NCBI GenBank assembly: GCA_031274365.1
Contig: JAISQF010000020.1
Location: 1-51,066, forward strand
Source of the DNA: Elusimicrobiota bacterium
GTDB taxonomy: Bacteria; Elusimicrobiota; Endomicrobiia; Endomicrobiales; Endomicrobiaceae
Reading direction: 5' to 3'
DNA length: 51,066 bases
The notes under the pieces are model-generated. The model saw nothing but the letters and a program-made list of their open reading frames with translations, was not told where the DNA came from and ran no database searches. The first letter of the stretch is position 1; every line of letters begins with the position of its first letter. Of the stretch, positions 7,335-12,850 are shown piece by piece. The translations under genes were made by a program, and so were the position numbers.

Positions 7335-7434
7335 GAATAATTTTACAGACAAATGTATAAAGATGATTATTCGTTATTGTAAGAGTTAACGATTTTGATG
7401 GAATAATTTTACAGACAAATGTATAAAGATGATT
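7335..7434. repeat. Two 34-bp perfect direct repeats upstream of the PTS operon
   Basis: Identical 34-base copies lie at 7335-7368 and 7401-7434, separated by 32 bases. Each contains an imperfect dyad (TTTACA, six bases, TGTATAAA) like a helix-turn-helix operator half-site pair. They lie about 150-250 bases before the permease start, consistent with paired regulator sites. The rest of 7240-7584 shows no gene. Confidence 0.75.
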
Positions 7435-7584: not shown

Positions 7585-7887
7585 ATGGCAAAAGATTTTG
7601 TAAAAACAGCTCTAGGCGTTCTTGACGGAGTAGGCGGTAAGGATAATATTAAAACTGTGGTGCATTGCGCAACAAGACTTAGGTTCACTTTGGCGGATTC
7701 AGCTAAAGCGTCTGACGAATCTGTTAAAGCTGCGACGGGCGTAGTCAGTGTGGTAAAAGCGGGAGGACAGTATCAAGTTGTTATAGGTAATGATGTGCAT
7801 GAAGTATTTGTTGAGTTGGAAAAGTTGGGCGCCCCAACTGGTGAAAGTGACGGGGGGGGGGGGGGGGCGTCGAAAAGCAGTCGATAG
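7585..7887 (+). CDS. PTS enzyme IIB domain (beta-glucoside/glucose family), cut off at a G16 tract
   Basis: 100 residues from ATG 7585, chosen because GGAAGGGAGG lies 5-10 bases upstream; an in-frame ATG at 7567 precedes that site. This is the IIB domain that passes phosphate from IIA to the incoming sugar; C28 in HCATRLRF is the phosphocysteine. In this copy the frame runs into the 16-G run at 7852-7867, reads five glycines plus ASKSSR, and stops at 7885. The IIC-IIA part continues in another frame directly afterwards. Frame arithmetic: 17 or 14 G would join both parts into one protein of about 647 residues, the normal size of a BglF-type IIBCA permease. Confidence 0.9.
   Translation: MAKDFVKTALGVLDGVGGKDNIKTVVHCATRLRFTLADSAKASDESVKAATGVVSVVKAGGQYQVVIGNDVHEVFVELEKLGAPTGESDGGGGGASKSSR
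7852..7867 (+). repeat. G16 homopolymer inside the PTS permease gene
   Basis: Sixteen consecutive G lie exactly at the IIB-IIC linker. The IIB frame occupies positions 1 mod 3 and the IIC frame 0 mod 3, so the present length is out of frame; gain of one G or loss of two restores the fusion. Poly-G of this length is a classic slipped-strand hotspot but also error-prone in sequencing. Confidence 0.93.
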
Positions 7888-7940
7888 GCAAAATTCTTAT
7901 AGGCACTATCAGCGGAGTATTCACGCCGATTTTAGCCGCA

Positions 7941-9527
7941 TTGATGGGCATCGGTATTATCAAAGGTTTAATTGCTAGTCTATCCGTAATATTCCCCGCG
8001 TGGGCGGCTTCAGGCGATATGTCTTACACGATTATATACGCAGCCGGGGACACATTGATGTATTTCCTACCTATATTAGTCGCATACACAGCATCTCAAC
8101 GTTTTGGACTTGACCCGATAGTCGGTATGGTTATCGGCGCGTCTCTTGTATATCCATCCATTGTGGCAGAATATCCTTTCGGTCCCTGGGGCGTGCATAA
8201 ATTTTTTGGTATGGATATTTTAGTTATGATGCGTTATAGCGGCACCGTTTTACCGTCTATTTTTGCAGTGTATGGAGCAAGTAAGTTGTATAAATATTTT
8301 CGCAGAACGCTGCCTTCCTCAATAAAAAATTTCATCGCCCCATTTGCAACGCTCATCATAATTATTCCATTGATGTTTTTGATAATTGGTCCCATATTTG
8401 GAGTTGTAGGTCTTGGGATTCAAGCTGGCATAAAAGCCATCGTAGCGATAAGATTTATCGGACCTGTAATTTTGGGTTTGATAATCGGCGGATTTTGGCA
8501 AGTTTTGGTTATCTTCGGACTTCATTGGGCGGTAGTGCCCATAGGCATACACGAAGCTACCGTGCCAAATCTTTTCTTTGGCGATATTGGCGTCACTATG
8601 ATTCTTGCTTATACTCAGATTGCGGTAATTGCGCAGATGGGCGCTGTTTTTGCAATGGCGCTCCGCATAAGAAATATTGAGCGCCGCTCTGCGGCGATTG
8701 CTGCGGGAGTAAGCGGAATTTTCGGCATCACCGAGCCTATTATCTACGGTTTTACTTTGCCTAAGAAAAAGCCATTTTTATTAGCTTGTGTGTCCGGCGC
8801 GATTTTTGGCGCTCTGGCCGGCTTGTTAGGCAGTTTTAATTCCGGCGGTTATGGTATTGCTCAGCAAATGGGCGCGTTGGGAATTTTTACATATCCGAGT
8901 TATTTGTTGCCGGGATTTGCCGGTTCCACAATGAATTTTATTATCGCTCTATCGATGAGTATTCTTTCTATGGGTGTAACTTTTCTTTTAGTTTATCTTA
9001 CCTATAAACCGGACAGCGCGGAGTTAAAAGTTGATAAGGAAGTGATTATCGACACATCAAAAGTAAATACGGCGACAGCAAAGAAAATTTACGCGCCGGT
9101 AAAAGGCCGCATATTGCCTATAAGTCAATCGGCTGATGCAGCGCATCAACAAGAAACGCTCGGCAAAGGCGTGTGTTTTATGCCTCTGGGCGGAAAAATT
9201 TTCGCGCCTTTTAACGGAACTGTTGATATGGTATTTGATACAAAACATGCGATAGGTCTTCGTTCTGACGACGGCGTCGAACTTTTAATCCATTGCGGCA
9301 TTGACACTGTTAAACTTGGCGGCAAAGGATTTACTATGCATGTAAAAGAGGGTGATAAAATTACAACCGGTCAGTTGTTGTTTGAATATGACAAAGATAT
9401 TATCGCCCGCTCCGGATACAGTCTTGAGACGCAAGTTGTTGTGACAAATTCTGAAAATTACAAAGCGATAACTCAAGCAAAGTCCGGCGATTGCGCAGTT
9501 GGAGATTTGATTTTATATGTGGAGTAG
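7941..9527 (+). CDS. PTS enzyme IIC-IIA (beta-glucoside family), downstream part of the split permease
   Basis: The frame is open from 7851, just before the G tract; upstream of the nominal TTG at 7941 it already reads VEKQSIGKILIG and GVFTPILAALMGIG, typical IIC start sequence, so 7941 is not a natural start and the segment belongs with the IIB ORF. IIC spans about residues 1-350 with multiple membrane segments and the GITEPIIYGFTLP signature. IIA of the Glc type follows at roughly 390-528, with FAPFNGTVDMVFDTKHAIG and GVELLIHCGIDTV holding the conserved histidines. Substrate is inferred as a beta-glucoside from the phospho-beta-glucosidase downstream. PTS EI and HPr are not in the window. 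Confidence 0.9.
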   Translation: MMGIGIIKGLIASLSVIFPAWAASGDMSYTIIYAAGDTLMYFLPILVAYTASQRFGLDPIVGMVIGASLVYPSIVAEYPFGPWGVHKFFGMDILVMMRYSGTVLPSIFAVYGASKLYKYFRRTLPSSIKNFIAPFATLIIIIPLMFLIIGPIFGVVGLGIQAGIKAIVAIRFIGPVILGLIIGGFWQVLVIFGLHWAVVPIGIHEATVPNLFFGDIGVTMILAYTQIAVIAQMGAVFAMALRIRNIERRSAAIAAGVSGIFGITEPIIYGFTLPKKKPFLLACVSGAIFGALAGLLGSFNSGGYGIAQQMGALGIFTYPSYLLPGFAGSTMNFIIALSMSILSMGVTFLLVYLTYKPDSAELKVDKEVIIDTSKVNTATAKKIYAPVKGRILPISQSADAAHQQETLGKGVCFMPLGGKIFAPFNGTVDMVFDTKHAIGLRSDDGVELLIHCGIDTVKLGGKGFTMHVKEGDKITTGQLLFEYDKDIIARSGYSLETQVVVTNSENYKAITQAKSGDCAVGDLILYVE

Positions 9528-9580: not shown

Positions 9581-12579
<2,999 letters not shown>

Positions 12580-12778: not shown

Positions 12779-12815
12779 ATTAAAGCAGCTTAATAGTCTT
12801 GAGCAAAGGCGCTCA
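12779..12815 (+). promoter_or_regulatory. Dual-hexaloop ANTAR-type RNA in the glnA leader
   Basis: Two perfect 5-bp hairpins each close a six-base loop. P1 pairs 12779-12783 with 12790-12794 (loop AGCAGC). P2 pairs 12800-12804 with 12811-12815 (loop AAAGGC). The linker is five bases. ANTAR proteins are known to bind two hexaloop hairpins with A at loop position 1 and G at position 4. P2 fits both; P1 has A at position 4. The P2 3' arm lies inside the terminator 5' arm, so the two folds exclude each other. Confidence 0.8.
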
Positions 12816-12850
12816 TTAAAGAAAATTCTTTAATGGGCGCTTTTTGTTTT
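12809..12850 (+). terminator. Leader terminator upstream of glnA
   Basis: A stem of about 14 pairs (12809-12822 with 12827-12840, one G-U pair) with an A/T loop is followed by TTTTTGTTTT. It lies about 50 bases before the glnA start and downstream of the promoter, so unregulated transcription should end here. Binding of an antiterminator to P2 would sequester 12811-12815 and prevent it from forming. Confidence 0.85.

Follow-up and report, generated by a model that had tools for sequence, protein, structure and literature searches.

Slipped-strand phase variation is mostly known from the surface structures of pathogens. The closest described systems in nutrient use differ from the locus reported here in mechanism or in target. 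In Mycobacterium tuberculosis, according to work cited in PMC11868660, the carbon-use gene glpK is switched by a reversible homopolymer frameshift; its product is a kinase and not an importer, and both tract and organism are different. Glycan-use genes of Bacteroides undergo invertase-mediated phase variation that affects nutrient acquisition (PMC11868660), by DNA inversion rather than slippage, in glycan-use systems of another phylum. In Mycoplasma fermentans a poly-A homopolymer frameshift is found in p78, a gene of an ABC-transporter operon (PMC2831843); this gene encodes the surface lipoprotein subunit of the ABC system and its tract is a 7-base poly-A. Two further candidates were rejected as precedents, namely the Gardnerella ulaA PTS, whose authors treat the change as homopolymer-unassociated and found it non-causal, and a sugar transporter tract of Propionibacterium acnes, which is a deletion scar and no switch. 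In the open-access literature searched, we found no report of a PTS sugar permease switched by strand slippage or simple repeats, and none of G tracts in termite-gut treponemes. An earlier sequence-only reading of this DNA had stated that slippage at nutrient importers is rarely described, and publications on sugar importers switched by simple repeats are indeed few.

We analysed a stretch of 51,066 nt (the window) in which a PTS permease gene is interrupted by a long G tract. We put the probability at about two in three that sugar import is switched here by slipped-strand events at a contingency locus, of a kind that has evolved recurrently at one permissive glycine linker. The features are as follows.

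7585 to 7887, + strand: open reading frame of the EIIB domain with Cys28 (PF00367, E 4e-15; best NCBIfam model TIGR01995).
7852 to 7867, + strand: G16 in the glycine linker between IIB and IIC, leaving the domains out of frame; recurs at the same site in relatives.
7868 to 9527, + strand: EIIC-EIIA coding part in another frame (PF02378, 2e-29; PF00358, 1.5e-45), with 0 internal stops.
9581 to 11110, + strand: 5'-nucleotidase/calcineurin-like phosphoesterase (PF02872, PF00149), second gene of the apparent operon.
11146 to 12579, + strand: intact GH1 6-phospho-beta-glucosidase (NF007158, 718 bits against a cut-off of 639).
12805 to 12844, + strand: intrinsic-terminator-like hairpin of 18 pairs, which follows the GH1 gene and probably marks where the operon ends.

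Read directly from the window, the tract is an exact G16 homopolymer and, apart from a C67 at 26 to 92 within the contig's first 92 bases that looks like an assembly end, it is the sole G/C run longer than 6. Under a first-order Markov model, 1.6e-5 G/C runs of at least 16 would be expected in the whole 1.04 Mb genome; as in contingency loci, this is a simple repeat within a reading frame, of a length far above chance. The IIB frame starts at the ATG at 7585, reads across the tract and meets an early stop (TAG, 7885 to 7887), and the IIC-IIA frame continues through the linker to the stop at 9527. The order IIB, IIC, IIA and the active-site Cys and His regions are present in the assembly, split over two frames, with Cys28 within HCATRLRF, GITEPIIYG in IIC and LLIHCG in the IIA region. 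The sequence-only reading was therefore right that three intact domains are thrown out of frame by a 16-G run at the IIB/IIC linker, since 86 nt separate the motifs of IIB and IIC; it was also right in its arithmetic, as the frames rejoin only when the tract has 14 or 17 G or another length in this series of three-base steps. The tract is the sole frame lesion in the gene. The same reading called the permease switched off. The domains are indeed split, but this describes the state of the assembled consensus only, and because metagenome assembly can miscount a G16 by one base, the OFF call for the window is weak on its own.

Separate translation of IIC-IIA was ruled out, since the window holds no plausible start codon ahead of the first membrane segment; the TTG and ATG at 7941 and 7944 fall inside IIC, and the open reading frame from the TTG at 7941 has 528 aa. 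A 34-nt sequence occurs twice, as identical direct repeats 66 nt apart, at 7335 to 7434 (+ strand), ahead of the PTS gene.

From the gene order and the terminator-like hairpin, the PTS gene, the 5'-nucleotidase-like gene and the GH1 gene probably form a single operon. The cytoplasmic phospho-beta-glucosidase had been described as intact, which its model score bears out, with the 5'-nucleotidase-like gene lying between it and the permease gene. The same gene order is found in a single-contig Treponema-family genome (G203, locus L161), in which the nucleotidase counterpart at the same place has 27% identity, and GH1 genes 75-78% identical adjoin spirochaete PTS orthologues. Genes for EI and HPr were found in the window genome. 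TIGR01995 (BglF-type) is the best model for the PTS gene, though its curated cut-off is missed; intact in-frame orthologues reach 565-568 bits against the cut-off of 614.7, which points to a divergent relative. Since a 6-phospho-beta-glucosidase gene is linked, the transported substrate would be beta-glucosides such as cellobiose or salicin.

The window genome was placed in Endomicrobiaceae, the family of Endomicrobium proavitum. A misbinned contig was ruled out by a glutamine synthetase on the same contig that is 90% identical to that of a same-genus genome. Only 1 of 35 family relatives has a match to the PTS protein, and it is distant (26%), while the protein is found at 65-78% identity in named termite-gut Spirochaetaceae and Treponema MAGs. 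The nearest relatives come from termite-gut Treponema/Spirochaetaceae and share 62-79% identity with the window gene over IIC-IIA, and a transfer of the PTS gene between phyla appears likely. The tree does not reject a position of the window gene outside the spirochaete set (p-AU 0.44), so that only composition and the patchy distribution of the gene speak to the direction of transfer.

In order to compare the linker among orthologues, we used named contigs and 200 genomes of one spirochaete family and read the linkers. Among about 35 orthologues, a G tract was observed in exactly the IIB-IIC linker at 13 loci in 9 genomes, with lengths of 14, 14, 14, 15, 16, 17, five of 11, and two broken tracts of 14-15, as listed below.

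Window: G16, off.
G062: G14, in frame.
G064: G14, in frame.
G067: G15, in frame.
G099: G17, in frame.
G108: G14, in frame.
G063, five paralogues (L131, L148-L151): all exactly G11, 1 in frame and 4 off.
G060: broken tract, 7+C+6, in frame.
G061: broken tract, 5+A+9, in frame.

Tract length thus differs among related copies and gives both frame states, as is the case for contingency loci. Five of the 13 tract loci are out of frame, by differing offsets and with the coding sequence otherwise intact; the window and L150 are shifted one way and L148, L149 and L151 the opposite way. The sequence-only reading had proposed a comparison of the same locus in related genomes, with a short non-repetitive linker counting against it. 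The outcome is divided: eight further genomes bear tracts, in and out of frame, but about 20 orthologues, including that of the single-contig genome G203, have an ordinary tract-free linker. For this reason the tract, on the sequences compared, is a recurrent, lineage-specific gain and no fixed feature of the gene. In 69 kb scanned (a few genes twice), all G/C runs of at least 7 fall in a narrow zone 72-89 nt upstream of the reference point in IIC, with none elsewhere in these genes. Tract-free orthologues encode the glycine linker with GGC and GGA, so that GGG codons are not needed. Outside G063, uninterrupted tracts are in frame in 5 of 6 cases (p 0.018 against one third); the frame therefore seems to matter and ON to be favoured, and for the same reason the OFF state may be rare or unfavourable. 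In a distant PTS of another subfamily (L154, G092:C109; 33% identity), a G11 also lies in the IIB-IIC linker, out of frame.

These comparisons bear on whether the G16 is a consensus error, a miscall or a minority variant of a tract that is in frame in most cells. In that event the linker would still hold a G tract but would not be off. Short reads are error-prone at long G homopolymers, the contig ends in G runs of up to 70 indicate that the assembly handles G runs badly, and single-copy orthologues are mostly in frame. However, off-frame tracts recur in four G063 copies and in the different PTS of G092, and other tracts of the window genome split genes too, and we regard this explanation as improbable.

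Long G runs can cause slippage. Programmed transcriptional slippage or ribosomal frameshifting on the tract would yield free IIB and full-length permease in a constant ratio, with the DNA unchanged in length, and the conservation of some off-frame genes would fit with this. A programmed frameshift would be expected to keep a constant frame offset, whereas the offsets observed vary or are zero. The differing offsets of the off-frame copies, which would need shifts of opposite sign, disfavour this explanation, and most orthologues are in frame or tract-free. RNA folding around the tract is ordinary (z -0.25 in a fold model without G-quadruplexes), and an action of the tract through RNA structure was ruled out for structures covered by that model. 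We consider a programmed shift very improbable.

We built a tree on IIC-IIA with the linker left out. It requires eight or more changes of tract state, and a topology that unites all tract-bearing genes in one clade is rejected (p-AU 0.0023). The G063 paralogues are scattered over the tree, beside tract-free relatives. Despite their differing tree positions, four G063 copies have similar or shared bases flanking the tract, which suggests that gene conversion may have spread a tract cassette among them.

The off-frame copies retain a full-length IIC-IIA frame with 0 stops. By the NG86 method, the off-frame copies of G063 have dN/dS values of about 0.11-0.17, compared to 0.07-0.14 for in-frame pairs. 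For pairs that include the window gene dS is saturated; differences are found at 61-65% of third positions and at 10-21% of first and second positions. These substitution patterns indicate that the out-of-frame copies are under purifying selection. This leaves scarcely any room for a decaying pseudogene, formed after a spirochaete-like operon entered an Endomicrobium-like host. The gene is largely absent from the family, and the orthologue in G127, with multiple lesions, does appear to be decaying. Yet the window frame is disturbed by the tract only, its IIC-IIA part is stop-free and reaches 79% identity with the spirochaete copies, with differences mostly at third positions, and the GH1 gene is intact.

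In order to place the tract in its genomic context, we counted G tracts in whole genomes. The window genome has 26 pattern matches of G9 or more, about half of them near contig ends, against 0.86 expected G/C runs of at least 9. Internal tracts split genes for a glycosyltransferase-8, a PMT-like protein, an FkbM methyltransferase and a hexapeptide transferase. The coding tracts of the window genome are thus mostly in glycosyltransferase-type genes, typical of contingency loci, in accordance with the earlier remark that G-tract switches usually control surface structures. Several further observations were made in this genome. Three paralogous FkbM-type methyltransferase genes (L061, L068 and L069, on C11, C21 and C22) have tracts of 16, 15 and 12 at the same place, one in frame and two out. 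Dispersed similar repeats (C15:149, C17:76010, C4:25779, C2:39423) each contain a G14-G18 tract, outside long open frames. A G9 lies immediately before the stop of a PALP-family, threonine-synthase-like gene (L062, C13:10053), where slippage would alter the C-terminus. Contigs of this genome (G000) have G-rich tips of low complexity and terminate within or close to G runs that reach 70 bases, from which it follows that assembly breaks at G tracts. Same-family genomes have 0 to 53 tracts of G9 or more. Since single-contig, isolate-sized genomes also bear such tracts (11 in G011 and 41 in G203), they are not merely a MAG artefact.

The main rival to a contingency locus is a G tract that is neutral and simply tolerated. 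Tolerated tracts would grow in a hypermutable linker through mutational bias or poor repair, and frame errors would be a load, with no adaptive switching. Tracts of at least 9 G are present in 198 of the 200 spirochaete relatives (range 0 to 307 per genome), and in genomes so rich in G tracts a glycine linker might expand without selection. Most of the G061 tracts are located elsewhere than between long open frames. Tract length has a sharp genome-specific mode, as if set by the species, being exactly 15 in 43 of 65 tracts in G061 and 11 in the G063 sample. In-frame states prevail outside G063, and the two interrupted tracts are both in frame. On the other hand, four of the five G063 paralogues are off-frame yet conserved, the tract recurs at one exact site in independent lineages, and the coding tracts of the window genome are mostly in contingency-type genes. 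We consider the neutral explanation unlikely, although it deserves more weight than the other rivals.

The proposed switching of sugar import agrees with the domain split, the sole lesion, the recurrence, the purifying selection and the EI and HPr genes; the sequence-only interpretation is partly supported. Within a clonal population, replication slippage would add or remove single G's. A frame-keeping length would give a single IIB-IIC-IIA beta-glucoside permease that imports the sugar as its 6-phosphate, and the neighbouring 6-phospho-beta-glucosidase would then cleave the sugar phosphate. Other lengths would lead to a stop soon after the tract, leaving a soluble IIB alone (about 100 residues) with IIC and IIA lost, and such OFF cells would lose uptake. 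The flexible glycine linker would allow ON cells to tolerate tracts differing by multiples of three. Switching at the level of the population may serve as bet-hedging, for example with sugar competition set against the avoidance of sugar-phosphate stress; alternatively, the OFF state may allow escape from a phage or a toxin for which the permease is the point of entry or attack.

More broadly, and with somewhat less than even confidence, we suggest that termite-gut symbionts of two phyla may use slipped-strand switching of plant-sugar import. The PTS linker would repeatedly gain G tracts, one spirochaete would hold several independently phased copies, the switchable operon may have crossed phyla, and cells would vary in carbon diet. 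A sugar importer with repeated gain at the same linker offers a clean test of whether contingency loci can be selected by metabolic bet-hedging instead of immune evasion, and among the orthologues there are naturally occurring ON, OFF and seemingly locked alleles to compare. A further caution is that functional genes may be split at G tracts when genes are called in termite-gut MAGs.

Compared to BglF-type permeases (TIGR01995 / PRK09824), the window gene has the same IIB-IIC-IIA order, active Cys, IIA domain and 6-phospho-beta-glucosidase neighbour; it differs in its sub-cut-off model score and in the G tract of its linker, of which we found no mention for BglF-type permeases in the open-access literature. 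Phase variation of nutrient use is already known, and the suspected new point suggested by these sequences is that insect-gut symbionts switch a PTS sugar importer by strand slippage at a G tract. The locus resembles the simple-repeat contingency loci of Neisseria, Campylobacter, Haemophilus and the treponemal tpr genes in having a long poly-G within a reading frame, frame-changing lengths and several such tracts per genome. In contrast to those loci, its target is a cytoplasmic-membrane sugar importer and not a surface structure, and its switching is inferred from sequence.
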